Assembly: GCF_003121985.1 (NCBI RefSeq)
Contig: NZ_QEWP01000028.1
Coordinates: forward strand, 1 to 36,059
Length of the DNA: 36,059 bases
Source of the DNA: Marinilabilia rubra
GTDB lineage: Bacteria > Bacteroidota > Bacteroidia > Bacteroidales > Marinilabiliaceae
Direction: 5' to 3'
Part shown: piece by piece, positions 2,453 through 28,789 of the stretch
How positions within the stretch are numbered: position 1 is the stretch's first letter
Layout: each line of letters begins with the position of its first letter
Notes under the pieces: model-generated
The model's database searches: none
Told to the model about the DNA's origin: nothing
Seen by the model: only the letters and a program-made list of their open reading frames with translations
Position numbers and translations under genes: made by a program

Positions 2453-2878
2453 GATTAAAGCGGTTGCGTATTTTGGAAAAAGCTTGATTAGATTAGGAGC
2501 TGCTGAAAAAGTCAAAAGGGCAGAATTTACAAGCCGCCCAATCGAAAGAGTATTGAAATACTTCGAGATTGAGGCGGTGAAGTAAATTTTGTTCTTTTGA
2601 TTAGCCAATTTCATATAATCAAGTGCAAAGAAATTCGAGTATATTGTGAAATAAGCTTGCACTTAAGTATTTGTTGAGAGGATTTAAGGTTTTAATAGCT
2701 AGTTAAATATGCGTTTTTCAGCGCTCCCTGGATTAGTTTTTCCTGATTTATAGGGAATGAGGCGTTTATCAATGCTATGTGTGCTAAGTCTGAATCTTTT
2801 GAAAATGAAAGACTATGTTTATCTGATGTCTTAGATCTTATAATCTCATCATCTATTTATATGGATTGTGTATTTCTA
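2453..2878. other. intergenic region, nothing recognised
   Basis: About 430 bases between the terminator and the ileS promoter. A 44-codon open stretch beginning with TTG near 2451 and a 62-codon one from 2777 are present, but neither has a convincing ribosome binding site or recognisable similarity. The second would overlap the ileS promoter and start. I see no RNA gene. Confidence 0.4.
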
Positions 2879-2910
2879 TTTGCTTTTGTTTTAGCCAAGC
2901 GATATATTTG
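2879..2910 (+). promoter_or_regulatory. Bacteroidota promoter of ileS (TTTG-N20-TAnnTTTG)
   Basis: TTTG at 2879-2882 and TATATTTG at 2903-2910, separated by 20 bases, match the -33/-7 pattern of the Bacteroidota housekeeping sigma factor. Transcription would start near 2916-2918, leaving a leader of about 30 nt before the ATG at 2946. This is the best promoter match in the window. Confidence 0.7.
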
Positions 2911-2945
2911 TAGACTTTTAAAATCGGAGGTAAAACATTATATAA

Positions 2946-5900
2946 ATGAGCAAAAAATTTCCTGAATACAAGGGTTTAAACCTCGCTGAAGTTAATAAGG
3001 AGGTGCTGAAAGAGTGGGAGGCCAATAAAACATTCGAGAAAAGTTTGTCCAGTCGTGAAGGGCGTCCGTCTTTTGTCTTTTATGAAGGGCCTCCTTCGGC
3101 CAATGGTATGCCGGGTATACACCACGTAATGGCGCGAACCATTAAGGATATTTTTTGCCGTTTCAAAACTCAGCAGGGATATCAGGTTCATCGTAAAGCC
3201 GGTTGGGATACTCACGGTTTGCCTGTTGAGCTTGGTGTTGAGAAGACATTAGGTATTACCAAAGAAGACATCGGGAAAAGCATTTCTGTAGCAGAATACA
3301 ATGAAGCCTGCCGTAAAGATGTAATGAAATATACCGATATGTGGGAAGATTTGACCCACAAAATGGGATACTGGGTAGATATGGATAAGCCATACATTAC
3401 CTATGATAACCGGTATATTGAAACCCTTTGGTGGATGCTCAAAGAGCTTTACAAGAAAGGAATGCTCTATAAAGGATATACCATACAGCCATTTTCCCCT
3501 GCTGCAGGTACCGGTCTGAGTACCCATGAATTGAATCAGCCCGGCTGTTATCGTGATGTCAAAGATACCACATGTACGGGACAGTTTAAGGTTGTAAAAA
3601 ACAAAGATTCTGAGTTTCTATTTGAAAATACTGATGCCGAAGTTTATTTCCTTGCTTGGACAACCACTCCCTGGACATTTCCGTCCAATACGGCATTAGC
3701 AGTTGGAACTTCCATTAAGTATGTGAAAATCCGTTCGTTCAATCCATATACCGGCGAACCGTTGGTGGTGGTTATGGCGAAGGATCTCATGAATACCCTT
3801 TTTAATCCAAAACATGCAGAACTGGCGTTGGAGGATTACAAGTCCGGAGGCAAGGAAATTCCCTTTAAAGTATTAGATGAATTCGAGGGCTCCAAATTGG
3901 TCGGATTACGCTACGAGCAATTGATTCCCTGGGTGAAACCTGACGGAGATGCTTTTAGAGTGATTTCCGGTGATTTTGTAACCACTGAAGATGGTACCGG
4001 AATCGTACATATTGCCCCTACTTTTGGTGCTGATGACAACCGTGTGGCCAAAGAAGCAGGAATTTCTGCATTGTTGTTGGAAGATAGGGATGGAAAGCAA
4101 CAACCAATGGTTGATCGCACCGGAAAGTTTTTTCTTATAAAAGACCTGGATCCTTCATTTGTAAAAACGAATGTAGATCTTGATACATACAGTGAGTTTT
4201 CGGGGAGGTATGTTAAGAATGCCTACGACGAGAAACTTACGGATAATGATCCAAGCCTGGATGTGGATATTGCCGTGATGCTGAAGAAGGAAAACAAAGC
4301 CTTCAAAGTAGAGAAATACGTTCACAGTTATCCGCATTGCTGGCGTACAGATAAACCGGTGTTGTATTACCCGCTGGATAGCTGGTTTGTTCGTACTACT
4401 GCTGTCAGGGAGAGAATGATGGAACTCAACAATTCCATCAACTGGAAGCCTCAATCAACAGGAACCGGACGTTTCGGTAAATGGCTGGAAAATCTGGTTG
4501 ACTGGAACCTTAGTCGCTCTCGTTATTGGGGAACCCCATTGCCTATCTGGAGAACGGAAGACGGATCTGAAGAAAAGTGTATAGGATCTGTTGAAGAACT
4601 GGTAAATGAAATAGACCGTTCCGTACGCGCCGGATTTATGGAGAAGAATCCTTTTGGAAGATTCCGTCCGGGTGATTTCAGTGATAAGAATTACGACAAA
4701 ATTGACCTTCACAGACCATATGTGGATGATGTTGTTCTGGTTTCAGAAGAAGGAAAGCCGATGCATCGTGAAACTGATTTGATTGATGTCTGGTTCGATT
4801 CCGGGGCTATGCCTTATGCACAGGTACACTATCCTTTTGAGGGCCTCCCCCCAACCCCCTCCCAAAGAGGGGGAGAAGGAAGACCTGGGTATGAAACCGG
4901 AAGAGAATCAACATATAATGGTATGGTTGATAAGGTTCGACAAATGCGTAAAGAACCCACTGAGGCAGAAGATATTCTATGGCAACAGTTGCGCAATAAA
5001 CAGATGGACGGATGGAAATTCAGGCGGCAGCATGTTATTGATCAGTTTATTGTTGACTTCGTATGCTTAGATAAAAAACTAATTATAGAAGTTGATGGTG
5101 GATATCATAATGATCCGGAAATAAAAGATGCAGACCAACAAAGGACAGGAGTTCTTGAGGGTTTGGGATACAAAGTTATTAGCTTTACCAATGAGGAAGT
5201 CTTAGGTGATACGGAGTCTGTGATTAAACAAATAAAGCTTAACTTGGAAGAACTTCCCTCCCCGGGTGGGGATGAGGGAGGCCACACTTCCCCCCTTGGG
5301 GGGGATCGAGGGGGGCCATTGCCCTTCCCGGCTGATTTTATTGCTGAAGGGGTCGATCAAACACGTGGATGGTTCTTTACCTTGCACTCATTAGGCACTA
5401 TGCTGTTTGATAGTGTTGCATTTAAAAATATTATTTCCAATGGACTTGTGTTGGACAAGAATGGAAACAAAATGTCCAAGCGCCTGGGAAATGCAGTAGA
5501 TCCATTTGAAACCATTGATAAATATGGCTCAGACCCACTTCGTTGGTACATGATTACCAATGCTCAGCCATGGGATAATTTGAAATTTGACCTGGCTGGC
5601 ATTGATGAAGTTAGACGAAAGTTTTTTGGCACTCTGTACAATACTTATTCATTCTTCTCATTGTATGCCAATATTGATGGTTTTACCGGTCAGGAAGAAG
5701 AAGTCCCGGTTGAGGAGCGCCCTGAGATTGATCGTTGGATCATTTCTCTTTTAAATACGTTGACTAAAGAAGTTAATACGGCTCTCGAAAACTACGAGCC
5801 AACAAGAGCAGGGAGAGCTATTCAGGATTTTGTAACTGAGAATCTTAGTAACTGGTACGTGCGTCTTAACCGGAAACGTTTTTGGGGAGGCGCCTTTGAC

Positions 5901-6839
5901 AGGGATAAATTAGCTGCCTACCAAACATTGTACCAGGCATTGGAAACCGTGGCCTTGTTGGGTGCCCCAATTGCTCCCTTCTTTATGGATCGCCTATTCA
6001 AAGATTTGAATAAAGTTTCCCGGAAACATTCCGATGAATCTGTTCATTTAGCCCGGTTCCCTGAATTTAATGAGAAATACATCGACACTTCTCTGGAAGA
6101 AAGAATGGGATTTGCCCAGCAAATTTCTTCAATGGTGCTGGCCTTACGCAGAAAAGTGAACATTAAGGTCCGTCAGCCATTGCAAAAGATAATGGTGCCG
6201 GTATATGATGATCATTTTGAACAGCAGATTGAAGCTGTAAAAGATTTGATCCTGACAGAGGTAAATATCAAGGAAATTGAGTATCTTAAAGATGTCACCG
6301 GCGTATTGGTTAAGAAGATCAAGCCCAACTTTAAAACCCTTGGCCCACGTTATGGCAAGATGATGAAGGCCATCAGCAAAGCTTTCGCTCAAATGTCACA
6401 GGAAGACATTGCCCAATATGAACGTGATGAAAAATACAGTCTGGACCTGGATGGCGAAAAGGTTGAATTAAACCGTGAAGATGCTGAAATCATTAGTGAA
6501 GATATTCCGGGCATGTTGGTTGCCAATGAAGGTCGTATCACCGTAGCTTTGGATATTAATATTACCCTGGAGCTAAAAGAGGAAGGGTTTGCCAGGGAAT
6601 TGATTAATCGCATTCAAAACCTCCGTAAAGACAGTGGATTTGAAGTGACCGATAAAATAAAAATAAAAATACAGCAACATGAATCGCTGGCCAGTGCCAT
6701 CGAGAGTCACAGAGAATATATTTCTGCGCAAACGCTGGCTCAGGAGGTAGAAATGGTAGATTCTTGTAACAGCAGCGATGCCCTTTCCGTAGAGTTGGAA
6801 GATGGCGTGAGCACGCTGCTTGAAATTGAGAAAGTTTAG
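2946..6839 (+). CDS. ileS: isoleucyl-tRNA synthetase with an in-frame DUF559 nuclease-like insertion
   Basis: Charges tRNA-Ile with isoleucine in the cytoplasm. The protein is 1297 residues; Bacteroidota IleS is normally about 1140. Class I signatures are present: PSANGMPGIHH (about 50-60, the HIGH equivalent), AWTTTPWT and GTGIVHIAPTFGADD of the editing domain, WFDSG at 616-620, and KMSKR at 842-846. The excess is an insertion of about 161 residues (633-793) between HYPFE and FPADFIAEGVDQTRGWF. This is a variable loop between two conserved catalytic-domain blocks. The insert contains a DUF559 domain (about 660-769) flanked by Gly/Pro-rich peptides translated from GC-rich inverted repeats. 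Both the host and insert frames are intact, and all synthetase motifs survive on either side, so I infer a functional enzyme with an extra domain, unless the product is cleaved. Transcribed from the promoter at 2879-2910; followed after 35 bases by the DksA-like gene. Confidence 0.97.
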   Translation: MSKKFPEYKGLNLAEVNKEVLKEWEANKTFEKSLSSREGRPSFVFYEGPPSANGMPGIHHVMARTIKDIFCRFKTQQGYQVHRKAGWDTHGLPVELGVEKTLGITKEDIGKSISVAEYNEACRKDVMKYTDMWEDLTHKMGYWVDMDKPYITYDNRYIETLWWMLKELYKKGMLYKGYTIQPFSPAAGTGLSTHELNQPGCYRDVKDTTCTGQFKVVKNKDSEFLFENTDAEVYFLAWTTTPWTFPSNTALAVGTSIKYVKIRSFNPYTGEPLVVVMAKDLMNTLFNPKHAELALEDYKSGGKEIPFKVLDEFEGSKLVGLRYEQLIPWVKPDGDAFRVISGDFVTTEDGTGIVHIAPTFGADDNRVAKEAGISALLLEDRDGKQQPMVDRTGKFFLIKDLDPSFVKTNVDLDTYSEFSGRYVKNAYDEKLTDNDPSLDVDIAVMLKKENKAFKVEKYVHSYPHCWRTDKPVLYYPLDSWFVRTTAVRERMMELNNSINWKPQSTGTGRFGKWLENLVDWNLSRSRYWGTPLPIWRTEDGSEEKCIGSVEELVNEIDRSVRAGFMEKNPFGRFRPGDFSDKNYDKIDLHRPYVDDVVLVSEEGKPMHRETDLIDVWFDSGAMPYAQVHYPFEGLPPTPSQRGGEGRPGYETGRESTYNGMVDKVRQMRKEPTEAEDILWQQLRNKQMDGWKFRRQHVIDQFIVDFVCLDKKLIIEVDGGYHNDPEIKDADQQRTGVLEGLGYKVISFTNEEVLGDTESVIKQIKLNLEELPSPGGDEGGHTSPLGGDRGGPLPFPADFIAEGVDQTRGWFFTLHSLGTMLFDSVAFKNIISNGLVLDKNGNKMSKRLGNAVDPFETIDKYGSDPLRWYMITNAQPWDNLKFDLAGIDEVRRKFFGTLYNTYSFFSLYANIDGFTGQEEEVPVEERPEIDRWIISLLNTLTKEVNTALENYEPTRAGRAIQDFVTENLSNWYVRLNRKRFWGGAFDRDKLAAYQTLYQALETVALLGAPIAPFFMDRLFKDLNKVSRKHSDESVHLARFPEFNEKYIDTSLEERMGFAQQISSMVLALRRKVNIKVRQPLQKIMVPVYDDHFEQQIEAVKDLILTEVNIKEIEYLKDVTGVLVKKIKPNFKTLGPRYGKMMKAISKAFAQMSQEDIAQYERDEKYSLDLDGEKVELNREDAEIISEDIPGMLVANEGRITVALDINITLELKEEGFARELINRIQNLRKDSGFEVTDKIKIKIQQHESLASAIESHREYISAQTLAQEVEMVDSCNSSDALSVELEDGVSTLLEIEKV
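4841..4879 (+). repeat. left GC-rich terminal repeat of DUF559 element
   Basis: Begins GGGCCTCCCCCCAACCCCCT, then CCCAAAGAGGGGGAG. It contains an internal C-run/G-run hairpin and is inverted relative to the two right-hand copies. It is translated in ileS as a Gly/Pro/Arg-rich peptide (GLPPTPSQRGGEGR). Confidence 0.85.
5253..5283 (-). repeat. right GC-rich repeat, copy 1
   Basis: The reverse complement reads GGCCTCCCTCATCCCCACCC then GGGGAGGGAAG, the same plan as the left repeat (GGCC, pyrimidine run, C-run, G-run, GAAG). Read in ileS as LPSPGGDEGGH. Confidence 0.75.
5286..5318 (-). repeat. right GC-rich repeat, copy 2
   Basis: The reverse complement reads GGCCCCCCTCGATCCCCCCC then AAGGGGGGAAGT. 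It closely resembles the repeat at 12028-12062 and is the inverse of the left end. Two tandem copies on one side suggest repeated insertion or slippage. Confidence 0.8.
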
Positions 6840-6874
6840 CACACTCATTTTATACACATATAAATTTTGTCATT

Positions 6875-7252
6875 ATGGCAGAAAAAACCCGATATTCAGA
6901 TGAAGAGCTTCAGGAATTCAGAGAAATAATTCTTGCTAAGCTCGAAAAAGCAAAACGGGATTACGAATTGCTTAGAAACACCATAACCCTTGAGGATGGT
7001 AACGACACACAGGACACTTCACCCACTTTCAAAGTGCTGGAGGAAGGTGCAGCCGTGTTGTCTAAAGAAGAGGCCGGAAAATTGGCACAGCGTCAGCAAA
7101 AATTCATTCAACACTTGCAGGCCGCATTGGTTCGGATAGAAAATAAAACCTACGGTATTTGTCGCGAAACCGGCAAACTGATTGCAAAAGAGCGATTGCG
7201 CGCTGTTCCTCATGCCACTTTGAGCATTGAGGCCAAGAAAGCTCAGAAGTAA
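6875..7252 (+). CDS. TraR/DksA family regulator lacking zinc-finger cysteines
   Basis: A 125-residue protein with a predicted helical coiled-coil N-terminus (about 8-95) rich in Glu, Lys and Gln, followed by the C-terminal globular motif YGICRETGKLIAKERLRAVP typical of Bacteroidota DksA-like proteins. DksA binds the RNA polymerase secondary channel and, with ppGpp, adjusts rRNA and amino-acid promoters. Classical DksA has four Cys around a zinc; this protein has only one (in GIC), as is usual for the Bacteroidota branch, so the fold must hold without zinc. It starts 35 bases after ileS and precedes lspA. Confidence 0.88.
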   Translation: MAEKTRYSDEELQEFREIILAKLEKAKRDYELLRNTITLEDGNDTQDTSPTFKVLEEGAAVLSKEEAGKLAQRQQKFIQHLQAALVRIENKTYGICRETGKLIAKERLRAVPHATLSIEAKKAQK

Positions 7253-12027: not shown

Positions 12028-12062
12028 GGCCCCTAAATCCCCCAAAGGGGGACTTTGGGATG
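12028..12062 (+). repeat. GC-rich palindromic repeat, same family as the DUF559 element ends
   Basis: Reads GGCCCCTAAATCCCCCAAAG then GGGGACTTTGGGATG. It has the same plan as the ileS repeats (GGCC, spacer, C-run, AA/AAA, G-run) but no DUF559 gene. It lies 4 bases after the mntA-like stop. Confidence 0.7.
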
Positions 12063-17031: not shown

Positions 17032-17057
17032 TTGATTGCTTCTAATTGTATTTGAGA

Positions 17058-18206
17058 ATGGATCAACTTCATAAAGATTCCAATAAAGATAGTTCCGCCA
17101 AACAGCCACAAATCATCAAAGACGATGAGATTGATTTGGTGGCTCTGGCTAAAACCATCTGGGATGGTCGCAGAACCATCGTGAAAACAACCATTGTGGT
17201 GGTGCTTTTGGGCTTATTGTATGCTTTTTTAAGTACAGAACAATACACCACCACTGTGAAGTTAATGCCCGAGACCGGTCAGCAATCCAGCCTTGGAAGT
17301 TTGGGCAGTCTGGCCTCACAATTTGGATTTGGAGGGTTACCCTCAGGGGGGGATCTATCGGAAGGCATTCCGCCGGACTACTTTCCTGAAATCATGAAAA
17401 GTTTGCCTTTTATGAAAAGTCTGCTGAGGTACGAAACATTCATGAAAGGACCTGCGGATACCATGAGTATCTACCATTATTTTGCAGAGTATCGCTCCAA
17501 ATTGTTTGTCAAACAGCTTGGGAAATATACCATCAAACTGCCTTTCACCATCCTTAGTCTATTGAAGGGAGAGGATGATGGTAAAAAGCAAAAAGGAGAG
17601 CAGGAAATCATTCAGTTCACCAAAAAGGAGTGGGGGGTTATTGAAAAGTTGCAGGATCTTATTTCAGTCGAAATAGGCAAAGAGACAGGAATTGTTTCCG
17701 TGACCGTTACCATGCCTGAAGATTACCTGGCCGCCGATGTGGCAGATCAGGTTACCGGACAGCTGGTGGACTACATCAAGGAGTACCGGACCGAAAAGGC
17801 CAAAGAAGACCTTAGTTTTATTCAGGAGCGGTTAAATGAAGCGCTCCAACGCTTTGAAAAAGCACAGGAGGCATTGGCGACTTTCCGCGATCAAAGTCAC
17901 GGACAACTAACCGAAATGGCCCGCACACGCGAGCAACGCCTGCAAAGTGAATACGACCTGGCATACAAGGTTTACGGCTCCATGGCTCAGCGCCTGGAAG
18001 AGGCCAAAATTAAACTGCAGGAAGAAACCCCCGTTGTTAAAGTACTGGAACCGGCTTATGTTCCTAAAGAAAAGAGTGCTCCGAAACGTAAGTTGATATT
18101 GGTGGTGAGTGTGTTTTTGGGTGTGTTTTTGGGAATATGTGTGATTTTTGGAAAACTAGGACTAAAAATGTTCAAAAATAGACTCAATAATACAGATGAT
18201 ATATAG
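17058..18206 (+). CDS. Wzz-like chain-length determinant, copy 2 (no kinase domain)
   Basis: 382 residues from the ATG at 17058; a TTG at 17046 would add four residues and is less likely. It shares with copy 1 the N-terminal IIKDDEIDLVALAKTIWDGRR, a first membrane segment (TTIVVVLLGLLYAFL), a coiled-coil periplasmic stretch with RTEKAKEDLSFIQERLNEAL, an EPAYVPKEKSAPKRK approach and a second membrane segment (LVVSVFLGVFLGICVIF). It has no Walker A/B or tyrosine tail, so it is not a BY-kinase. Linked closely to the SLBB gene upstream and, after 52 bases, to pseB. Confidence 0.9.
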   Translation: MDQLHKDSNKDSSAKQPQIIKDDEIDLVALAKTIWDGRRTIVKTTIVVVLLGLLYAFLSTEQYTTTVKLMPETGQQSSLGSLGSLASQFGFGGLPSGGDLSEGIPPDYFPEIMKSLPFMKSLLRYETFMKGPADTMSIYHYFAEYRSKLFVKQLGKYTIKLPFTILSLLKGEDDGKKQKGEQEIIQFTKKEWGVIEKLQDLISVEIGKETGIVSVTVTMPEDYLAADVADQVTGQLVDYIKEYRTEKAKEDLSFIQERLNEALQRFEKAQEALATFRDQSHGQLTEMARTREQRLQSEYDLAYKVYGSMAQRLEEAKIKLQEETPVVKVLEPAYVPKEKSAPKRKLILVVSVFLGVFLGICVIFGKLGLKMFKNRLNNTDDI

Positions 18207-18258
18207 AAAAGCTGGCTGCTTTTTAGGAATAATTGTTTTGTTATTAAACTAATAGGAA

Positions 18259-19272
18259 ATGCTAAATTACAAAAAAATCTTAATCACCGGAGGTACAGGT
18301 TCATTTGGTAAAAAGTTTACTGAAATGATTCTCCGGGAATACCCTGAAGTTAAGCGCATCGTAATCTACTCCAGAGATGAGCTGAAGCAATCGGAAATGC
18401 GCATGAAGTATCCACCTAAGGATTTTCCACAGTTGCGTTTTTTTATTGGAGATATTCGCGATAGGGAAAGGCTTATTCGTGCTTGTGAGGGAATTGACGT
18501 AATAATTCATGCAGCAGCCATAAAACAAGTGGATACCGCTGAATATAATCCCACTGAATGCATTAGAACCAATATCGACGGGGCTGAAAATGTAATTCAT
18601 GCCGCACTTGCCTGTAATGTTAAACGTGTTGTTGCATTAAGTACTGATAAAGCCTGTGCTCCCATAAACCTTTATGGAACTACCAAGTTGGCTTCCGATA
18701 AGTTGTTTACCGCAGCGAACAACATAAAAGGATCACGGGATATAAGGTTTTCAGCTGTTAGATATGGAAATGTGATGGGCTCCAGAGGCTCTGTTATTCC
18801 TTTCTTTATGAAACAAAGGGAAAAAGGAATTATTCCAATAACCCATGAGGGAATGACTCGATTTAATATTTCTTTGGAAGAAGGGGTGCGTTTGGTGTTT
18901 TTTGCCATTGAAAATGCATTAGGAGGAGAGATCTTTGTGCCTAAAATACCTTCTTACAAGATTTTGGATGTTGCCAAAGCCATTGCACCGGAATGTGAAG
19001 TTAAAAATGTAGGAATTCGGCCGGGGGAAAAATTGCACGAAGAGATGATAACGGAAACCGACTCACTAAACACTATTGATTTAGGGAAATATTATGCTAT
19101 TTTGCCATCCGTGTCTTTTAGCCATTCCAAGGAGGATTTTATAAAACATCATAACGCTAAATCTGTTGAGTTTGGATTTAAATATAACTCTGGCACTAAT
19201 GATGAATGGGATTCCGTTGAGTCATTGCGTGAGAAAATTAGAAAATTCGTTGATCCTAATTTTACTGTATGA
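18259..19272 (+). CDS. pseB: UDP-GlcNAc 4,6-dehydratase (inverting), first pseudaminic acid step
   Basis: 337 residues. It converts UDP-GlcNAc to UDP-2-acetamido-2,6-dideoxy-beta-L-arabino-hexos-4-ulose in the cytoplasm. Short-chain dehydrogenase fold: NADP-binding GGTGSFGKK (about 11-19), STDKACAPINLYGTTK with the Asp-Lys pair and YxxxK used in the inverting dehydratase, and RYGNVMGSRGSVIPFF typical of the PseB/FlaA1 family. The short length, with no N-terminal membrane part, separates it from CapD/PglF. Its stop overlaps the pseC start (ATGA at 19269-19272), so translation is coupled. Confidence 0.94.
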   Translation: MLNYKKILITGGTGSFGKKFTEMILREYPEVKRIVIYSRDELKQSEMRMKYPPKDFPQLRFFIGDIRDRERLIRACEGIDVIIHAAAIKQVDTAEYNPTECIRTNIDGAENVIHAALACNVKRVVALSTDKACAPINLYGTTKLASDKLFTAANNIKGSRDIRFSAVRYGNVMGSRGSVIPFFMKQREKGIIPITHEGMTRFNISLEEGVRLVFFAIENALGGEIFVPKIPSYKILDVAKAIAPECEVKNVGIRPGEKLHEEMITETDSLNTIDLGKYYAILPSVSFSHSKEDFIKHHNAKSVEFGFKYNSGTNDEWDSVESLREKIRKFVDPNFTV

Positions 19273-20426
19273 TAGATCGAGCAATACCTTATGGGAAGCA
19301 GTCCATCGATCAGAAGGATATCGATGCCGTTGTAAATGTCTTGAAGTCTGATTTCTTAACTCAGGGACCTGCTGTTTCTGATTTTGAAAAAGCTTTTGCA
19401 AAATACATAGGTGCCAAATTTGCGATTGCAGTTTCCAATGGTACAGCTGCTTTACATTTGTCTGCATTAGCATTGGGAGTAAGTGAAGGTGATAAGGTTA
19501 TTACTACTCCCATTACGTTTGCTGCTTCAGCCAATTGCATTCGTTATGCAGGTGGAGAAGTGGTTTTTGCTGATATTGACCCGGAAAGTTATTTAATAGA
19601 TTTAAATGAAGTGAAAAAGCTTCTTTCTGAAAGTCCCAAAGGAACCTTTAAAGGGATTATTCCGGTTGATTTTGCAGGAAGGGCGGTTAACATGGAGAGC
19701 TTAAGAGAAATTGCGGATCAATATGGATGTTGGATTATAGAGGATGCTTGCCATGCACCCGGAGGCTGGTTCACGGATTCTAAAGGTATTAAACAATTTT
19801 GTGGTAATGGAAACTTTGCCGACCTGGCAATATTCTCTTTTCACCCAGTAAAACATATTGCGTCTGGAGAAGGCGGTATGATAACTACGAATGATGAAGA
19901 GTTATATAATAAGTTGCTGGTTCTTCGGACACATGGTATTACTAAAGATGCAAATTTGCTTGAAGAAAACCATGGTGGCTGGTATTATGAAATGCAGCAA
20001 TTAGGTTATAATTACAGATTATCAGACATTCAGGCAGCGCTCGGAGCAAGCCAACTGAGAAAAGCTGATGAAGGTTTACAGCGGAGGCGGAAAATTGCGA
20101 AAAGATACAATCAAGCTTTTAAGGAGGTATCTCAAATTAAAGGTCAATCAGGTTATGTTGAAGGACACGCCTACCATTTGTTTATAATTGAGGTTGAGGA
20201 CAGGTTAGGATTGTATAATTTCCTTAGAAAAAATGGAGTTTTTGCTCAGGTTCATTATATCCCGGTACATCTCATGCCTTATTACAAACAATTAGGTTGG
20301 AAAAAAGGGGATATGCGCTTTGCAGAGAATTACTACTCACAATGTTTGAGTTTACCAATGTATCCTTCTTTAAGCGATGAGGAACAAGAGTTTGTGATTA
20401 ATTGTATTTTTGATTTTTTTGCATAA
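19269..20426 (+). CDS. pseC: UDP-4-amino-4,6-dideoxy-N-acetyl-L-altrosamine transaminase
   Basis: 385 residues, PLP-dependent aminotransferase of the DegT/DnrJ/EryC1 family. It aminates C4 of the PseB product using glutamate. SNGTAALHLSALALG binds the cofactor phosphate, D159 (IIEDACHAPGG) contacts the pyridine nitrogen, and K195 in SFHPVKHIASGEGG forms the Schiff base. The C-terminal VHYIPVHLMPYY is typical of PseC. The gene overlaps pseB at its start and the next gene at its end, all in one operon. Confidence 0.94.
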   Translation: MIDRAIPYGKQSIDQKDIDAVVNVLKSDFLTQGPAVSDFEKAFAKYIGAKFAIAVSNGTAALHLSALALGVSEGDKVITTPITFAASANCIRYAGGEVVFADIDPESYLIDLNEVKKLLSESPKGTFKGIIPVDFAGRAVNMESLREIADQYGCWIIEDACHAPGGWFTDSKGIKQFCGNGNFADLAIFSFHPVKHIASGEGGMITTNDEELYNKLLVLRTHGITKDANLLEENHGGWYYEMQQLGYNYRLSDIQAALGASQLRKADEGLQRRRKIAKRYNQAFKEVSQIKGQSGYVEGHAYHLFIIEVEDRLGLYNFLRKNGVFAQVHYIPVHLMPYYKQLGWKKGDMRFAENYYSQCLSLPMYPSLSDEEQEFVINCIFDFFA

Positions 20427-21441
20427 TAAGGGAATAAATAGCCAAAAGACAAGAATCGTTTTTAGAGCTGATGGAGACCGTAAAATCGGCATGGGGCATT
20501 TCGTTAGAACCCTTGCCTTAGCAGATATGCTAAAAGAAGATTTTTATTGCGTTTTTGCCACTGTTAAGCCCTCTTCATATCAAGAAGATGAGGTTTTTAA
20601 AGTTTGTGAGGAATTAATTGTTCTACCTGAAAAGAAAACGCATTTTGAAGATCTTCTTAAGGAACTTACCGGTCATGAAATTGTAGTATTAGATAATTAT
20701 TATTTTAGCACTAACCATCAAAATAAGATCAAATCTATTGGTTGTAAATTGGTTTGTATTGATGATGTTCATGATAAGCATTATGAATCTGATATTGTTT
20801 TAAATCATGCTCCGATAAATCCTGGTGGTTTTTCCCTAAGTCCAAAAACCAAACTCTTATTAGGTTTAGATTATGTTTTGCTCAGGCCTCCTTTTTTTAC
20901 AAGAACCAAAAGGAAAGGACAGTTTATTGAATTTCGTCACGTATTTCTGAACTTTGGAGGGGCTGATTTTAAGAACCTAACAGGATGCTGGCTTCGAGAA
21001 CTAGCAACTGTTTCTTACATCAACGAAATTTCAATTGTTGTTGGGGATGCTTTCATGCAGATGCATGAGCTTTCTTGTTTAGTTGAAAAAAATCCGCTAA
21101 AAATCAACATATATCAAAATGTCGATGCTAATAAGTTAGTTTCTATCCTACAGACTATCGACCTCGCAATTGTTCCTTGTAGTACTATCTTGTATGAAGT
21201 AATATCCCAAGACGTTCCAGTTGTTACAGGCTATTTTGTCGACAATCAAAAGGAAATAGCTAGTTGTTTAAAGGGGAGGTACGAACATGTCTATGTTTTA
21301 GGCAATCTTGAAAAAGTGGAGATTAGAGAAATACATAAATTTAGAGAAAAGGTCAAAAACTCTAAAATTATAGGACTTAATTTAAAGCATCCAGTGGGGA
21401 AATTGAAAAAAGAGTTTTTGGCATTAAACCAGCGTAATTAG
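20410..21441 (+). CDS. pseG: UDP-2,4-diacetamido-2,4,6-trideoxy-L-altrose hydrolase
   Basis: About 340 residues, GT-B-like nucleotide-sugar hydrolase that removes UDP before the sugar is condensed by PseI. RADGDRKIGMGHFVRT carries the GxGHxxR motif with the catalytic His (H30 if the start is at 20410); the C-terminal half has the GT28-like nucleotide-binding part (LNFGGADFKN, YQNVDANKLVSILQ). The start is uncertain: there is no ATG before the conserved region, and TTG codons at 20410 or 20419 are the only reasonable choices, both inside the end of pseC. From here on the coding DNA is clearly more AT-rich than upstream. Confidence 0.9.
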   Translation: MIFLHNKGINSQKTRIVFRADGDRKIGMGHFVRTLALADMLKEDFYCVFATVKPSSYQEDEVFKVCEELIVLPEKKTHFEDLLKELTGHEIVVLDNYYFSTNHQNKIKSIGCKLVCIDDVHDKHYESDIVLNHAPINPGGFSLSPKTKLLLGLDYVLLRPPFFTRTKRKGQFIEFRHVFLNFGGADFKNLTGCWLRELATVSYINEISIVVGDAFMQMHELSCLVEKNPLKINIYQNVDANKLVSILQTIDLAIVPCSTILYEVISQDVPVVTGYFVDNQKEIASCLKGRYEHVYVLGNLEKVEIREIHKFREKVKNSKIIGLNLKHPVGKLKKEFLALNQRN

Positions 21442-21446
21442 ATTTT

Positions 21447-22121
21447 ATGAAAAATATTGCCATTATACCTGCAAGAGGAGGAAGCAAAAGAATACCTCAT
21501 AAAAATATAAAGCACTTCCTTGGTAAGCCAATTATCGCCTATTCTATTGAAGCTGCTATTAATTCTGATTTATTTGATGAAATAATGGTTTCGACAGATG
21601 ATTACGAAATAGCGGAAGTTGCAAAACAACATGGTGCAAGAGTTCCATTTCTGCGTTCAGAGGAGAATTCAGACGACTTTGCTACCTTAGCTGATGTAAT
21701 TGATGAAGTAAAAAGACAGTACCTGGAACAAGGAAATTTGTTTGATAATATTTGTTGCATTTTACCTACCGCACCTTTGTTAACTGTTGATAATTTAAAA
21801 AAAGGGTATGATTTACTTAGCAACAGAAATGTTGATTCAGCACGTCCTGTTGTTCGCTTCTCATACCCCATTCAGCGTGCATTGAGATTGGATGGAAATA
21901 AAAAAATAGGCATGTTTAACGACGAATATAAAGATTGCCGATCACAGGATTTAGAAGCTGCATTTCATGATGCAGGACAGTTTTATTGGATGAAGTTTGA
22001 TATTGGATTAAGAGGGAACAACAAATTTGGATTTGAAATTCCGGAAACAATGGTTCAGGATATTGATAATGAACAAGATTGGGTGATTGCTGAATTGAAA
22101 TATAAAATGATTAACTTATGA
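21447..22121 (+). CDS. pseF: pseudaminic acid cytidylyltransferase (CMP-Pse synthetase)
   Basis: 224 residues. It activates pseudaminic acid with CTP to CMP-Pse, the donor for glycosyltransferases. The N-terminal IIPARGGSKRIPHKNIK is the CTP-binding signature of the CMP-sialic acid synthetase family; VSTDDYEIAEVAKQHGA and HDAGQFYWMK are typical of PseF. It lies 5 bases after pseG, and its TGA overlaps the ATG of the ATP-grasp gene (22118-22121). Confidence 0.93.
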   Translation: MKNIAIIPARGGSKRIPHKNIKHFLGKPIIAYSIEAAINSDLFDEIMVSTDDYEIAEVAKQHGARVPFLRSEENSDDFATLADVIDEVKRQYLEQGNLFDNICCILPTAPLLTVDNLKKGYDLLSNRNVDSARPVVRFSYPIQRALRLDGNKKIGMFNDEYKDCRSQDLEAAFHDAGQFYWMKFDIGLRGNNKFGFEIPETMVQDIDNEQDWVIAELKYKMINL

Positions 22122-23074
22122 ATATTCTCATTAGTTCAGTCGGAAGACAGGCATATTTAGTAAAAGCTTTTATACAAGCATTAGGGAACCAAGGAAGGGT
22201 ATATGCTGTTGATTGTGATGAAAAGGCAGTTGGATTAAAGACGGCTGATGATTTTTTTATTGCACCACCATTTTCCAGTTCGGAATACGTTCCATGGATT
22301 ATTCAAATATGTGAAAAATATAATATTAAATTATTGGTTTCTTTAAATGTTGATGATATATTAATATTAAAAAAATCAGAAAATTTATTTTCGCATTTAG
22401 ACTGCTTTATCCTTGGAGCTGATTATGAGACAATGTCCCTTTCAAATGATAAATACCAACTCCCATTATTATCCCAGAAATTAAATCTCCCAAGTGCAAA
22501 AACTTTTTTGGTTTCCCAAGATTTTGATATAGAGATGATCCACGAGCTTCCGGTCATTGCGAAACCTAGGTATGGTAAGGGAGCAAGAGGTAACTTTATC
22601 CTAAAGGAAAAAAAGGATTTAATTGAATTCCTTGAAACAAACAAAGGAGATATTCCCTACGTATTACAGGAATTTATTTCAGGAGAGGAGTATGGTTTTG
22701 ATGTAATTAATGATTTAAATGGGAATTTCTTAAGATTATATGGGAGAAAGAAACTTCTACAATATAACGGAGAGTCATTTCGGGCAAAAACAGTCCATCC
22801 CAAATTTTGGGAAGAACCAGCGTTAAAGTGGAGTAAATGGTTAAAACATACTGGAACTGCAAACTTTGACGTGATTTTTAAAGATGGGAAAGGATATCTA
22901 ATTGATTTGAATTTACGCTTTAGCGGTGATTATGTTTTTAGTCATATTGCTGGAGCTAATACTCCTCAATTGTTAATTGATAACCTCTTAAAACTGCCGA
23001 TGGGAGAAAAAACATACCAACCCAAAATTGAGGTAATAGGTGAACGTTTGGATTATGGGGCTAAAATCATTTGA
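22118..23074 (+). CDS. ATP-grasp ligase of unknown substrate in the pseudaminic acid locus
   Basis: 318 residues, ATP-grasp fold of the carbamoyl-phosphate-synthase/PylC-like group. An N-terminal Rossmann-like part (MNILISSVGRQAYLVKAF) is followed by VIAKPRYGKGARGNF (ATP-binding loop), YVLQEFISGEEYGFDVI and DLNLRFSGD, which matches the Mg-binding (E/D)xNxRxSG element, so the catalytic site looks intact. Such enzymes join a carboxylate to an amine through an acyl phosphate. Sandwiched between pseF and a second PseG-like gene with overlapping ends, it probably modifies the sugar (for example by adding an amino-acyl group), but the substrate cannot be told from the sequence. Confidence 0.85.
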   Translation: MNILISSVGRQAYLVKAFIQALGNQGRVYAVDCDEKAVGLKTADDFFIAPPFSSSEYVPWIIQICEKYNIKLLVSLNVDDILILKKSENLFSHLDCFILGADYETMSLSNDKYQLPLLSQKLNLPSAKTFLVSQDFDIEMIHELPVIAKPRYGKGARGNFILKEKKDLIEFLETNKGDIPYVLQEFISGEEYGFDVINDLNGNFLRLYGRKKLLQYNGESFRAKTVHPKFWEEPALKWSKWLKHTGTANFDVIFKDGKGYLIDLNLRFSGDYVFSHIAGANTPQLLIDNLLKLPMGEKTYQPKIEVIGERLDYGAKII

Positions 23075-24086
23075 AAAGGGGAAAATTGCATTTTTGACAG
23101 AAGCAAATTTAGACATTGGATATGGCCATTTGTATCGTAGTGTTGCTTTGGCTCAGAAATTCTTTTCGAACAAATTTGATGTTGATTTTTTTTGCGATGG
23201 ATTTGTGCCAGCTAAAATTATAAGAGAAAATCTTCCTGAATCAAACGTTTTTGAATTACCAAGATTTAAAGCACTAATAAATAAATATAGTTTGGTCATC
23301 CTTGATGTTTTCAAGAATTCCTGGTTAAATTATCAATGGATAGCACAAACTACTGATATTAAAACAGCAAGTGTTATAGATTATGCATTTAAGGATTATT
23401 CTATTCCAACTGATTATATTTTTCAAATAGGGTTTCAGCCATATAGGTTTAATGAAGAAGTTAAGCCAAAGGAAAATGGAGAAATTTCCAAAGTCTATTC
23501 GGGAAATGATTTTTTCATTTTTAGAGAAGAATTTGAGGGGAAAAAAGCATTTGAAATAAAAAAGAATGCAAAAAAAATTCTTGTGTCCATGGGGGGAAGT
23601 GATCCGTATGGTCTTACCGAATTTGTATCCAACTCATTAATCAATATCAAAACACCATTAATAGTAACTTTTATTTTCGGTGCAGCAATAAAAGAAAAAA
23701 GGATTACAAATATTAATTCAATATTTTCAAATTCTTGTCATGACCTTCGAGTATGTCAAAATGTTAAGATTATGTCAAAAATTATGGAAAACCATGATTG
23801 TGCAATTATTAATGGAGGAAATACAAGATTTGAAATGGCCGTTGTGGGTATCCCATTTATTTCAATTTCTTTCAATAATCAGCAAAACAACATTGCAAAC
23901 TATTTACAGAATTACGGTATAGGAGAAAACTTAGGAATCTATAAAAACTTAAATTCAAAAGTGGTTGCAAAATCCATTGAAAGGTTTATCTATAATTATG
24001 CTGAAAGAAAAAAAATGTCTGAACAAATGAGAAAAAGTATTTGCATTAATGGGACCCAAAACATTTTAAATATTTTACTGGCATGA
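23055..24086 (+). CDS. second PseG/SpsG-like nucleotide-sugar hydrolase or transferase
   Basis: 343 residues from the ATG at 23055; a GTG at 23040 is the alternative start. The N-terminal EANLDIGYGHLYRS keeps the PseG GxGHxxR motif (G24-H25...R28), and the C-terminal half has MGGSDPYGLTEFV and INGGNTRFEMAVVGIPFI, which resemble GT28-type nucleotide-binding elements. It is only distantly similar to the protein at 20410, so this is not a recent duplication. It could hydrolyse a differently acylated UDP-sugar or act as a glycosyltransferase. It overlaps the ATP-grasp gene by 20 bases and the formyltransferase gene by 4. Confidence 0.8.
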   Translation: MGLKSFEKGKIAFLTEANLDIGYGHLYRSVALAQKFFSNKFDVDFFCDGFVPAKIIRENLPESNVFELPRFKALINKYSLVILDVFKNSWLNYQWIAQTTDIKTASVIDYAFKDYSIPTDYIFQIGFQPYRFNEEVKPKENGEISKVYSGNDFFIFREEFEGKKAFEIKKNAKKILVSMGGSDPYGLTEFVSNSLINIKTPLIVTFIFGAAIKEKRITNINSIFSNSCHDLRVCQNVKIMSKIMENHDCAIINGGNTRFEMAVVGIPFISISFNNQQNNIANYLQNYGIGENLGIYKNLNSKVVAKSIERFIYNYAERKKMSEQMRKSICINGTQNILNILLA

Positions 24087-25021
24087 TGGAGAAAAAGAAG
24101 TTAAAGGTTGTTTTGCTTACAATAGACAAAGCAGGTCAGATTTTAATAGAAAGATTACTCGGTGTATTGCCATCAAGTGTTTCTATAGAACTTGTTATTA
24201 CTCGAGAAACACGAAATTATGATTTTAACGGTAATCCTGTCGTAAATGCATGTAAAAAGGCAAATATTAATTGCATTCAGCCTGATTTTCAAGAGGAAGA
24301 TTATTTAGAAGAAATAAAAGCAGTACATCCAGATATTATACTAATTTCCAATTTTCATAAAATAATAAAAAAAGAACTAATTGAGTTATCTAAGATAGGC
24401 ACCTTTAATTTACATTCTTCGTTATTACCTGATTTAAGGGGAGGCACATCTGTTATCTGGGCATTAAAGAAAGGATTGAATAGAACAGGGGTGACCCTTC
24501 ATTATGTGACAGAAGGAGTTGATGATGGGGATATTATTACTCAGAAACCTGTGGATATTGATTTCTGGGATACTCAAGGATCTTTGTATGAGAAAATTAC
24601 GGTTGCTAAATTTGAAGTGTTGATGAAATTTCTTTTTGATATTGTTGAAGGACATGAAATTGTAGCTAAACCCCAAGATCATGAAAAAGCAAAATACCTT
24701 CCGAAAAGAAAAGATTCTGATGGACTTATTGATATTAACACCTCAATGCTACAAATCTATAATCATCTAAGAAGTTTTGACCCTTGGACAGGAGCTTATT
24801 TTGAATTAAATGGACAAAAAGTAAGATTGAGAAATGTTATTCCAGTAAAAGAAAAGTTAATGACGAAAGTCGATGATAGCTTTCTTACCATCGCAAAAGA
24901 GTGTGATAGTGGCATTCAGTCAATAATAATACAATCTGTTACCGATATTGTTGAAAAACCTGTTATGTATAACAAAGAATTAGCACAAAAGATATTTGAT
25001 TTCTGGAAATCCCATTATTAA
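24083..25021 (+). CDS. sugar N-formyltransferase (Fmt/ArnA-like)
   Basis: 312 residues. The N-terminal formyltransferase domain carries N109, H111 and D147 in NLHSSLLPDLRGG...VDDGD. The spacing is the same as the catalytic Asn-His-Asp of E. coli methionyl-tRNA formyltransferase and ArnA, so it should use 10-formyltetrahydrofolate. The C-terminal part (LRSFDPWTGAYFELNGQKVRL) resembles the small Fmt C-terminal domain. An Fmt housekeeping role is unlikely because it sits inside the pse operon and there is no def gene beside it. I infer N-formylation of an amino sugar, most simply the C4 amine of the PseC product in place of PseH acetylation. Confidence 0.85.
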   Translation: MMEKKKLKVVLLTIDKAGQILIERLLGVLPSSVSIELVITRETRNYDFNGNPVVNACKKANINCIQPDFQEEDYLEEIKAVHPDIILISNFHKIIKKELIELSKIGTFNLHSSLLPDLRGGTSVIWALKKGLNRTGVTLHYVTEGVDDGDIITQKPVDIDFWDTQGSLYEKITVAKFEVLMKFLFDIVEGHEIVAKPQDHEKAKYLPKRKDSDGLIDINTSMLQIYNHLRSFDPWTGAYFELNGQKVRLRNVIPVKEKLMTKVDDSFLTIAKECDSGIQSIIIQSVTDIVEKPVMYNKELAQKIFDFWKSHY

Positions 25022-25024
25022 GAA

Positions 25025-26032
25025 ATGAAACAAAATAGAACATTTATAATAGCTGAACTATCGGCTAATCATAATAACGATTTTAATCTCGCAGTAAAAA
25101 CCGTCCAAGCTATTGCAGAATCGGGCGCCGATGCGGTGAAAGTTCAAACCTACAAACCTCAAAGTTTGACCATTGATATAGACACTGGTTACTTTGCACC
25201 AAAAGCAGTAGGCTTATGGAAAGGATACACACCTTGGAAGTTATATTCCGAGGCTGCCATGCCTTACGAATGGCAACCTAAGCTAAAAAAAATAGCCGAA
25301 GATTTAGGACTTGTTTTCTTTTCATCTCCCTTTGATAAAGAGGGCGTTGATTTTCTTGAGAGCATTGATATTCCGATGTACAAGATTGCGTCATTCGAAA
25401 TTACAGACATTCCTTTGATTGAATACACTGCTTCAAAAGGAAAACCGATGATTATTTCTACAGGCGTTGCTGAAATTGAGGATATAAATCTTGCTATTGA
25501 AGCTTGTCATAAGGCTGGTAATGAAAAAATTACATTGTTGAAGTGCACATCACAGTATCCAGCAACAATTCAACAAGCCAATCTAAGAACCATCCCTGAT
25601 ATGAAAGAACGGTTTGGTGTGGATGTTGGACTATCCGATCACACATTGGGGAGCCTTGTGCCTACAGTAGCTGTTTCACTAGGAGCAACTGTGGTTGAAA
25701 AGCATTTTATTTTTGACCGTAATCTTGGTGGTCCGGATTCAGCGTTTTCTATGGAACCTCATGAGTTTAAAGAAATGGTCGATTCGGTTAGAAACGCTGA
25801 AAAGGCTTTAGGAAGTGTTGATTATACTGTTTCTGATAAAGATAAAAACAGGAGACGATCGCTTTTTGTTGTGAAGAATATTAAAGCCGGGGAAAAAATC
25901 ACAGAAAACAATGTTAGGAGTATTAGACCAGGTTATGGAATGCCTCCTAAAATTTTTAATGAAATTCTTGGGAAAACTGCCCAAATTAACATTGAGAAAG
26001 GGGAGCCATTTACAAATAGCATGATTGAATAG
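25025..26032 (+). CDS. pseI: pseudaminic acid synthase
   Basis: 335 residues, NeuB family. It condenses 2,4-diamido-2,4,6-trideoxy-L-altrose with phosphoenolpyruvate to give pseudaminic acid. TIM-barrel domain about 1-265: FIIAELSANHNNDF, ADAVKVQTYKPQSLT, FFSSPFDKEGVDFL, MYKIASFEITDIPLI, VGLSDHTLGSLVP, VVEKHFIFDRNLGGPD. The antifreeze-like SAF domain occupies about 275-335 (RRRSLFVVKNIKAGE, RSIRPGYGMPP). YKIASFE and ESIDIP favour PseI over NeuB or LegI. It is the last gene of the tightly packed pse run. Confidence 0.94.
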   Translation: MKQNRTFIIAELSANHNNDFNLAVKTVQAIAESGADAVKVQTYKPQSLTIDIDTGYFAPKAVGLWKGYTPWKLYSEAAMPYEWQPKLKKIAEDLGLVFFSSPFDKEGVDFLESIDIPMYKIASFEITDIPLIEYTASKGKPMIISTGVAEIEDINLAIEACHKAGNEKITLLKCTSQYPATIQQANLRTIPDMKERFGVDVGLSDHTLGSLVPTVAVSLGATVVEKHFIFDRNLGGPDSAFSMEPHEFKEMVDSVRNAEKALGSVDYTVSDKDKNRRRSLFVVKNIKAGEKITENNVRSIRPGYGMPPKIFNEILGKTAQINIEKGEPFTNSMIE

Positions 26033-26095
26033 GTTTAATTTATTATTGTGCAGGAAGAAGACGATTTCAATAAAAAAAATGTCACTAAAACTTGA

Positions 26096-27559
26096 ATGTC
26101 AAATTATTTTAAAATAGCAAAGAAAGCCTTAACAAATAAAGTATTACATTATATATTTAGCCGCTATGCGACCTACTTTATACAGTTTATAAATTCAATT
26201 ATTATTGCTATTTATCTTGGTCCTTATTATTTGGGGATATGGGGCTTTATTAGACTTGTGATTCAATATGTGGAACAAATAAATCTTGGAATTGCTCACT
26301 CGGTAAACGCCATTATTTCTATAGAGAAAAAGCATCAATGGTACACAAGTAAAGTGATTGGGACCTCACTCTCGATGTTAATAGCTCTTTCCTTGTTGGT
26401 GGTTTTGTTTTTTGTTGGGGATGAGGTTTTTGAATTAAATATTGGGAAGAAGTATAATTTTTCCCTTTATTCGCCAGCTGTTATTGTGATCGGAATATTA
26501 GCTTATTTTAATACATTGTTTAGCAATGTTTTTAGGGTTTATGGGCGTGTCATTGAAATTGCCATAAATCAATCGGCATTTCCGGTTTTTATGTTAGTTG
26601 CAATTTTGTTGTTTAGAAAAGAAAATTTGCTATGGGCTTTAGTTGGAGCAAATGTATTAGCTTTTTTACTTTGCTTTCTTATGTTTTTGTGGCGAGCTCC
26701 GATTAGTTTTAAACCCTTATTTATTAGAAGATTAATTAAAACCATTCAAATTAAAGGATGGCATTTGTTTATCTATAATACTTCTTTTTATTTGATTATT
26801 ATTACAACGAAATCATTTATCAGTGGATTCTACACTGTAGAAGAATTTGGTTACTTTACTTTTGCGTATAGTTTGGCAAATGTTGTTTTGTTATTACTGC
26901 AATCATTTTCATTTCTTATTTTCCCAAAATTAATAAACCGCATGGCATCTACAACGGGGGAAATGATCGATGGTCTTTTGGGAAATCTTAGGGGAATATA
27001 CATCACTTCATCCCACCTGTTGGTTCATTTAGGGATTGTTTTCATGCCTTTTTTTGTTTTGCTTTTTCCTCAGTACGATGAAGCTATTAATGTATTCAGA
27101 TTAACGGCCCTAACTGTTGTTTTGTATTCTAATGCATTTGGATATTCCGGTTTACTTATCGCTAAAAGAAAAGAAAGATTCTTGGGGTATCTTGCAATCT
27201 TTGCGCTTGGTTTAAATGTTAGTTTTGTTTGGATGTTAGCATCAGTCCTCCATCTTCCTTTTAATTTTGTCATTTTAGGAACTATGGTTGCTAATTTAGT
27301 CTATATTTTTTTATTGGGACTTTTTGGTAGGAAAACCCTCAATTTTAGGGTTGGAGTAATTATTGTTTTAAAGGATGTTTATCCAATTAGATTATTTATC
27401 CCATATTTTTTAACCCTTGCAATGATTATCCTGGGAGTTTCCAATGTTTGGTTTTTTACATCGATATTTATTTTCTTGATGCTTAACTATAAAATATTGA
27501 TACAAGTTAAGCATACTATTAGAAAGGTTATTAATAATCCTGATTTTATTAATGTCTGA
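26096..27559 (+). CDS. wzx: lipid-linked oligosaccharide flippase, Wzx-like
   Basis: 487 residues with 12-14 hydrophobic segments, of the MATE/polysaccharide-transporter superfamily. It begins FSRYATYFIQFINSIIIAIYLGPYYLGIWGF, a pattern typical of Bacteroidota Wzx proteins, and has charged residues between helices (RRLIKTIQIKGWH). It would flip undecaprenyl-diphosphate-linked repeat units from the cytoplasmic to the periplasmic face. It follows pseI after 63 bases. Wzx proteins are sequence-diverse, so the substrate is inferred from the surrounding genes. Confidence 0.88.
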   Translation: MSNYFKIAKKALTNKVLHYIFSRYATYFIQFINSIIIAIYLGPYYLGIWGFIRLVIQYVEQINLGIAHSVNAIISIEKKHQWYTSKVIGTSLSMLIALSLLVVLFFVGDEVFELNIGKKYNFSLYSPAVIVIGILAYFNTLFSNVFRVYGRVIEIAINQSAFPVFMLVAILLFRKENLLWALVGANVLAFLLCFLMFLWRAPISFKPLFIRRLIKTIQIKGWHLFIYNTSFYLIIITTKSFISGFYTVEEFGYFTFAYSLANVVLLLLQSFSFLIFPKLINRMASTTGEMIDGLLGNLRGIYITSSHLLVHLGIVFMPFFVLLFPQYDEAINVFRLTALTVVLYSNAFGYSGLLIAKRKERFLGYLAIFALGLNVSFVWMLASVLHLPFNFVILGTMVANLVYIFLLGLFGRKTLNFRVGVIIVLKDVYPIRLFIPYFLTLAMIILGVSNVWFFTSIFIFLMLNYKILIQVKHTIRKVINNPDFINV

Positions 27560-27854
27560 AATACAAATAATTAGGATTTTTAGAGGCTATAGCCCTAATG
27601 TGGCGCTTTTAATCCGAGACTGCTTCAGATCGCGTCTTTGCAATAATGTCTTTTTACTTTGATAAAGAGTATTTTGATAGCCGGAATAGGGTGTTTAGGC
27701 CCTATTCCCGCTGGCAACATTGTTCACATCAGTACGAAGCTCTTTTTATTGTGCGGTCATGGATCGAAGCAATCACCAAAAACACACACGCGATTTTAAA
27801 CGTTATCAATACAAATAGGAATTGTTTAAATGATTATAATTTATTGGAGAGAAG
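27560..27854. other. gap with a strong hairpin and a doubtful 70-codon frame
   Basis: The stretch is noticeably less AT-rich than its neighbours. GGAATAGGG (27683-27691) and CCCTATTCC (27700-27708) form a perfect 9-bp stem with an 8-base loop. A 70-residue open frame (27646-27858) spans it and runs 4 bases into the next gene. It starts MSFYFDKEYFDSRNR and I do not recognise it. It could be a small gene or a remnant of a lost cluster gene. Confidence 0.4.
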
Positions 27855-28787: not shown

Positions 28788-28789
28788 TT

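Follow-up and report, generated by a model that had tools for sequence, protein, structure and literature searches.

A DUF559 nuclease domain bounded by translated palindromes within the isoleucyl-tRNA synthetase of Marinilabilia rubra, and its relatives in housekeeping genes of Bacteroidota

INTRODUCTION

Homing nucleases of the EDxHD (Vsr-like) type are known from mobile introns (PMC3943268). Translated palindromes are known as well: Rickettsia palindromic elements (RPE), about 150 bp long and with a conserved peptide, are read in frame within unrelated protein genes and are described as having no nuclease (PMC10969869, PMC3733652). In REPtrons, as PMC3733652 presents them, dispersed GC-rich palindromes (REP/REPIN), often in inverted pairs and occasionally inside genes, flank the linked nuclease gene of a REP-associated tyrosine transposase (RAYT). 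Here we analyse a 36,059-nt window, one whole contig (C21) of the Marinilabilia rubra genome (5.38 Mb, 59 contigs, 99.99% complete), in which the gene for isoleucyl-tRNA synthetase (IleS) contains a DUF559 (Vsr-like) nuclease domain, inserted in frame and bounded by GC-rich palindromes that are themselves translated. The insertion is one case of a widespread class in Bacteroidota housekeeping genes.

The element shares features with each of these systems. From EDxHD homing endonucleases of the I-Bth0305I type it differs in having no intron or intein, in being translated inside its host and in its palindromic ends, and the extra DNA-binding region of that type is not seen in it. With RPE it shares the in-frame translated palindromes, a likeness of organisation, on which the comparison rests; elements of the window's type carry a nuclease and their lineages are host-gene specific. 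The initial annotation had drawn this comparison, fairly, and had missed the many-host, phylum-wide class and its host-gene-specific lineages. The dispersed GC-rich palindromes, inverted pairs, palindrome-flanked nuclease and in-gene copies recall REPtrons, except that here the enzyme is DUF559/Vsr-like and not an HUH tyrosine transposase, that the three Y1_Tnp loci of the M. rubra genome are palindrome-free, and that embedded nuclease copies predominate (among the best 80 loci, see below). Caulobacter VsrA, which causes an SOS response in cells without the ScmA methyltransferase (PMC12907096), and NGO0050 (3hrl) belong to the same domain family and fold as the insert; the literature consulted treats them as stand-alone proteins, whereas here the domain lies inside housekeeping enzymes. 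In-frame palindromes and EDxHD homing nucleases are both known, and nothing that joins the two was found in a search of open-access literature, which gives the element a real chance of being of its own kind. That search returned no paper linking DUF559 with tRNA synthetases and, in titles and abstract openings, none describing such insertions.

RESULTS

An in-frame nuclease domain within IleS

The features of the locus are as follows.

2946..6839, + strand: ileS, the host gene, 1297 amino acids (aa) (single open frame; Pfam)
4842..5324, + strand: in-frame insertion, residues 633-793, with HYPFE and FPADFIAEG on either side (translation; empty-site relatives)
4842..4875, + strand: left palindrome, translated (LPPTPSQRGGEG), made of an outer C-box, a CCCCCTCCC stem, an AAAGA loop and a GGGGGAG arm (repeat scan; predicted local distance difference test score, pLDDT, <50 at residues 618-661)
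4932..5246, + strand: DUF559 / Vsr-like nuclease domain, residues 663-767 (Pfam PF04480, E 3e-35; fold matches to 3hrl, 3r3p and Vsr)
5028..5108, + strand: catalytic-type residues Q695, H696, D704, E715, D717 and H721 (conservation among embedded copies)
5252..5284, + strand: first right-end repeat, translated (PSPGGDEGGH) (repeat family D1)
5286..5318, + strand: second right-end palindrome, CCCCCC-TTGG-GGGGGG-ATCGA-GGGGGG, translated (SPLGGDRGG) (repeat and pattern scans)

The frame at 2946-6839 encodes a complete IleS (Pfam tRNA-synt_1, 3.5e-111; Anticodon_1, 6.8e-32; DUF5915, 1.5e-59), is open across both junctions of the insert, and contains a DUF559 domain that scores 120.8 bits against a curated cut-off of 20.6. 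This agrees with the initial annotation, which had placed residues 633-793 between HYPFE and FPADFIAEG in a synthetase of 1297 residues. Two genomes of the same genus, G001 and G002, have no nuclease at the site and so define its empty state: the former reads HYPFEGKEDGSLPFPADF and the latter HYPFEGRTVGEGGLPFPADF. The element's net addition to IleS is thus slightly, by a few residues, below the 161 first counted. No intein family was found among the Pfam matches to this IleS at E 0.01, and no group I or II intron among Rfam matches up to E 0.1 within 2800-7000; with the frame kept open, an intein or intron is ruled out, as the initial annotation had held when it proposed that an endonuclease element had entered a loop able to accept it, its repeats being translated in frame. 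The IleS described here is the only one of isoleucine type found in the genome: a whole-protein search gave no second, only four further, weak matches in two other frames. Likewise the DUF559 domain within it is the only one found in the genome.

The nuclease looks alive, judging by an intact Vsr/EDxHD-type catalytic core and by purifying selection. Columns D704, E715, D717 and H721, already noted as preserved, hold D, E, D and H in 90/90 embedded and 30/30 stand-alone copies, and among the embedded copies the Q695 column has Q in 89/90 and the H696 column H in 87/90. Of 16 close pairs, 7 allowed the domain's ratio of nonsynonymous to synonymous change (dN/dS) to be computed, with values of 0.06-0.17; in the other 9 synonymous sites are saturated. 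The predicted domain (pLDDT 83.8) has the Vsr/EDxHD nuclease fold, matching NGO0050 (3hrl), the I-Bth0305I catalytic domain (3r3p) and Vsr. A predicted model of IleS residues 1-1098 has a mean pLDDT of 75.7 and a predicted template-modelling score of 0.59, and its arrangement of domains is unreliable. Within it, residues 671-770 reach 67-85 (in blocks of ten), whereas the stretches 618-661 and 772-796, comprising the translated palindromes together with a number of host residues, fall below 50; the model thus suggests a folded domain on flexible linkers, and a two-domain form of the synthetase is favoured.

Palindromic ends

Both ends of the insert are GC-rich hairpins with a third G/C box that directly repeats one arm. 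A palindrome scan places these hairpin-plus-box units at 4847-4873 (left-type) and 5289-5315 (right-type); the two are of one design, mutually inverted, and bear out the earlier statement that translated GC-rich repeats bound the insert. By the same strict definition, 147 palindromes occur in 83 embedded open reading frames (ORFs) and none in each of five codon-shuffled sets. Next to the nuclease there is a left palindrome in 52 of these ORFs, a right one in 55 and both in 39. Extra palindromes away from the nuclease are present in 15/83, with left-right pairs in four (L127, L138, L149 and L157); those of L155 are merely the ends of a long element. Stand-alone DUF559 frames, under a slightly looser definition, have a palindrome within 350 nt in 24/33 cases and on both sides in 16/33, at a density of 2.6 per kb near the frame versus 0.07 per kb far from it. 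On the evidence of sequence, palindromes and nuclease belong together. The synonymous difference of the element ends is below that of the host in all 16 close pairs (partly non-independent), as would follow from constraint on the palindromes at the DNA or RNA level; the low synonymous freedom of C/G-rich codons may contribute.

Across the M. rubra genome the right-end pattern gives 44 overlapping matches at 26 places, and the reversed control gives none. When 17 of these places were read, two lay in an open frame of >150 aa, one of them the copy in IleS and the other in a glycosidase-like frame. With a stricter left-end pattern the IleS copy is the sole match. A further one of the 26 places is in the window, at 12030-12050 on the - strand (CCCCTTTGGGGGATTTAGGGG), outside long reading frames. 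A 429-aa glycosidase-like frame (identified by eye; L189, G000:C28, 1134-1154) contains a translated left-type palindrome (NTPTPPQGAE), which could be either a nuclease-less copy or a native loop. In another locus (L137, 4273-5499, + strand) the N-terminal region of an argC-like frame, also named by eye, reads through several palindromes, with a stand-alone DUF559 gene adjoining upstream. Palindromes were found at none of the three Y1 transposase (Y1_Tnp) loci of the M. rubra genome, and the cargo is DUF559, so a RAYT as mobiliser is unsupported there.

A class of insertions across the phylum

A collection search with an alignment of ten inserts as the query confirmed at least 570 loci, of which the best 80 were kept. 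They were picked on nuclease similarity, independently of whether the surrounding frame is open, and in 75 of them DUF559 lies within an open frame of >250 aa; the other five are stand-alone. Host genes were named by NCBIfam in 35 of the 75 cases and otherwise by clustering with those or by reading the sequence; some host frames are cut by contig ends. LeuS is the most frequent host (24), followed by IleS (13), MetH (13), ValS (3), MetG (3), AroC (2) and CinA (2). Single cases are RecG, HutU, a ligase-associated DEXH helicase, a WbcJ-type reductase, Gmk, a dTDP-glucose-dehydratase-like protein, IspF, HisD, MazG, PaaZ, an alpha-xylosidase-type GH31, a LegC-type aminotransferase, IcmF, adenine deaminase and WecB; in Gmk, IspF and HisD the nuclease is terminal and not internal. 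Outside the best 80, HsdM, a helicase-like and an HsdR-like protein were recognised by eye as additional hosts. Two LeuS loci have unusual structures. In one (L109, 823-4278, + strand) the gene is in two same-frame pieces with a stop just after the nuclease, either a sequencing error or a natural split; in the other (L135, 3077-5596) a single frame has two different DUF559 domains at two sites, which fall in different parts of the nuclease tree.

In an even sample of the phylum, 165 of 395 genomes match the window insert, and in at least 37 of the 395, M. rubra included, the match is surrounded by a stop-free frame of ≥800 aa; the seven hosts read there besides the window are LeuS and RecG. 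Within the window's own family PF04480 occurs in 39/71 genomes, mostly as stand-alone copies.

Lineages of the nuclease follow the host gene

Insert lineages are tied to the host gene, and their distribution is patchy. A tree was built from 90 embedded nucleases; on it, the labels for host gene require 10 changes among the 73 copies whose host gene occurs at least twice, where the minimum is 7, the shuffled mean 39.5, and none of 300 shuffles was as low. With the ends trimmed the values are 12 and 39.7. The nearest other copy lies in the same host gene for 64 of the 73 (14 expected). Eight second copies within one genome were also placed: four, in ValS, RecG (twice) and LeuS, have a same-host copy of another genome as their closest match, and the other four (helicase-like, HsdR-like and two gene-start fusions) have no same-host copy to match. 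The copy in the same genome was the nearest in 0/8, its BLAST ranks being 27, 75, 66, 80, 22, 80, 85 and 102. Stand-alone and embedded copies form largely, and not cleanly, separate sets (7 changes versus 26.5 shuffled). Many forks of the nuclease trees are weak. Collection duplicates and the DUF559 loci with stops (L053, L061 and L063) were dropped from them, the stop-bearing L055 was missed by the profile search, and the gene-start fusions L226 and L229 were omitted from the host-label tree. A comparison of host and insert trees for IleS only has few columns and weak forks; L128, where the site motif was not found, is omitted from its host tree and L012 from both.

Occupied and empty IleS sites

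We surveyed the IleS site by whole-protein search in 61 related genomes. A full-length match with the insert is present in at least seven of them, M. rubra included, a lower bound as contig ends and N runs break some genes. The full element is found in the window, in two Marinilabilia salmonicolor genomes (JCM 21150 and MSL42) and in others. At the same loop G005 has a single right-type palindrome and no nuclease (SSSESPLGGDLGGLSIP), and short, scar-like GC remnants are present in G016 (CCCCCCGGAGGGGGG), G031 (CCCCCCGACGGGGGG) and G002 (GAGGGGGGCC); further relatives have plain short linkers. Occupied, empty, solo-palindrome and scar-like alleles thus coexist among relatives. Three objections that the initial annotation had raised against itself were looked at and none held: a fixed, vertically inherited IleS domain is ruled out by these mixed states, an assembly error by the same insertion in independent assemblies, the two M. 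salmonicolor genomes among them, and a decaying ileS beside an intact one by the lack of a second ileS in the genome search.

Divergence of insert and host

The RecG element lies between KLWxK and PPHxLVMTATP, a position shared by Maribacter, Aequorivita, Flavobacterium cucumis and further genomes; within one genus, 5 of 101 genomes have a whole-length RecG match with the insert. On a RecG host tree of 34 rows, 10 of them occupied (L234 and L241 being omitted as duplicates and L266 because the site motif was not found), occupancy requires 5 changes, at least 4 of which are forced by starred branches. The closest relatives of the occupied L230 have plain KKNDVPPH sites, and L248 retains a half-palindrome remnant. 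Between L239 and L240, 24% of synonymous sites differ in RecG and 1% in the insert (pS 0.24 versus 0.01). L236, L239 and L240 form three pairs that are not independent of one another; in these, 453 nt of insert contain 3-5 differences (0.7-1.1%), against 104-154 in 2100-2160 nt of flanking RecG (5-7%; Fisher exact test, P = 8e-5, 5e-9 and 2e-10), flank totals being summed over bins until the ungapped comparison loses register (35-36 bins). The boundary of low divergence lies at the element or within about 60-120 nt of it. At synonymous sites the insert has clearly diverged less than RecG in four of 11 occupied pairs (L239-L240, L230-L242, L242-L239 and L088-L225). These sequence comparisons indicate that there is recent, element-limited horizontal spread in the RecG lineage, the only one in which the insert was found to be less diverged than its flanks in the manner of laterally spreading homing elements.

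For LeuS, IleS and MetH, distances were compared over 22, 14 and 10 rows respectively, loci without the site motif being left out; the MetH comparison was not used, as the insertion of L148 is at another site. The LeuS host of L159 is nearer L120 and its insert nearer L140, and in four LeuS pairs a host distance of 0.12-0.21 accompanies an insert distance of 0.46-0.53, from which it appears that the insert turns over at one LeuS site.

DISCUSSION

We think it probable that the IleS insert is a palindrome-bounded mobile nuclease element that resides in a housekeeping protein as a domain translated in frame, without splicing, and that spreads in a homing-like way; that the element cleaves DNA and moves is what we infer from its sequence and distribution. 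The DUF559 nuclease, produced within the host protein or released from it, would cut or nick an empty allele at or near the loop, and repair would copy the element into the cut allele, as in homing. The palindromes might serve as its substrate in DNA form or mark its boundary, as signals for cleavage, hairpin formation or recombination, and might also allow the rarer ectopic and nuclease-less copies. In an essential host gene a sloppy deletion would be costly, and in IleS the domain would hang on its two flexible linkers with the synthetase core intact. Neither intein nor intron would be needed, because the element keeps the reading frame and lands in tolerant loops. The host-gene lineages and the recent horizontal spread in RecG speak for something like a homing endonuclease rather than for a palindrome with passive cargo.

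The chief rival is transposition of the kind known for REP or miniature inverted-repeat transposable elements, in which the DUF559 enzyme, in a RAYT-like role, would move the palindromes in the form of single-stranded hairpins, and the recurrent sites would be insertion-tolerant loops and nothing else. Most of its predictions are common with homing, and we hold it to be possible, if rather unlikely. It would account well for the palindromes away from the nuclease and their left-right pairs, for the 26 right-end places in the M. rubra genome, nearly all of those read lying outside long frames, and for palindromes that flank stand-alone DUF559 frames and are absent from Y1 transposase loci. The exchanged RecG segment, confined to the element, also suits it. 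Frequent free transposition is hard to reconcile with nuclease lineages so strongly locked to their host genes, with copies in one genome that are never nearest kin, and with the identical RecG position in Maribacter, Aequorivita, Flavobacterium and further genomes. Host locking thus favours homing, and the short exchange tracts favour transposition.

Synthetases and RecG are nucleic-acid-binding proteins, and the DUF559 domain is under purifying selection; both would fit a domesticated accessory domain that is useful to the host, for example by binding nucleic acid or through cleavage under stress, and that selection on the host maintains. We find this improbable in view of the patchy presence, empty sisters and scar-like remnants, of hosts such as AroC, CinA, MetH, HutU and adenine deaminase, which have no evident common function, of the exchange of the insert between genomes and of the related LeuS hosts with very different inserts. 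Least credible to us is a passive read-through scar, that is, palindrome-flanked stand-alone DUF559 genes occasionally trapped in frame with no continuing mobility. Stand-alone copies do bear the same kind of palindromes, and their separation from the largely distinct embedded lineage is not clean (7 changes), but a trapped gene of this sort would hardly keep its catalytic columns invariant in 90/90 copies or show the recent exchange seen in RecG.

Several observations weigh against homing-like mobility. Within its genus, the lineage of the window's own insert appears to be vertically inherited. Occupancy of RecG is clustered on the host tree (5 changes versus 8.9 shuffled, 4/500 as low) and must therefore be in part inherited. 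Among the 11 occupied RecG pairs the insert is about equally or slightly less diverged in five and more diverged in two (L243-L239 slightly, L233-L235 clearly), and no long co-conversion tract is seen, the nearest 60-nt bins having 0-3 differences and the next reaching the flank average. This is less than classical homing often leaves, and site-specific transposition may be at work instead. The insert is less diverged than its host in only 5/231 LeuS and 5/91 IleS pairs, and the distances between inserts are correlated with those between hosts (Spearman 0.54 and 0.28, respectively). The DUF559 domain by itself has no extra DNA-binding region, and DUF559 proteins can be mismatch-repair-like, as is VsrA (PMC12907096). 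It should be noted, too, that the 80 loci were picked by their likeness to embedded copies and are biased to the query's kin, and that many hosts are metagenome-assembled genomes.

The insertions look like an apparently undescribed, splice-free family of mobile elements in Bacteroidota housekeeping genes. We give about even chances to the broader proposition that there is a class of mobile elements housed permanently inside functional proteins, with palindrome-bounded Vsr-like homing nucleases running in frame and splice-free through essential genes of Bacteroidota, accompanied by satellite palindromes that lack the nuclease; some of the variation in the surface loops of bacterial housekeeping enzymes would then come from selfish DNA. 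No splicing was found for the Vsr-fold nucleases located in methionine synthase, RecG, class I tRNA synthetases and further hosts. Their distribution suggests that the DUF559 domain may act in mobile elements. Should cleavage and transfer prove real, a selfish nuclease would have a further survival route in essential genes, the in-frame palindromes of Rickettsia would have an active counterpart, and the insertions would provide a natural record of where essential enzymes tolerate added sequence. For annotators, such insertions are neither frameshifts nor ordinary domain fusions.

Elsewhere in the window, Pfam matches at 17046-31277 on the + strand identify surface polysaccharide genes: NeuB, a cytidylyltransferase, a formyltransferase, an ATP-grasp protein, an aminotransferase and a flippase-type protein, with a weak polysialyltransferase-like match in addition. 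From this gene content the region looks like a nonulosonic-acid glycan cluster.
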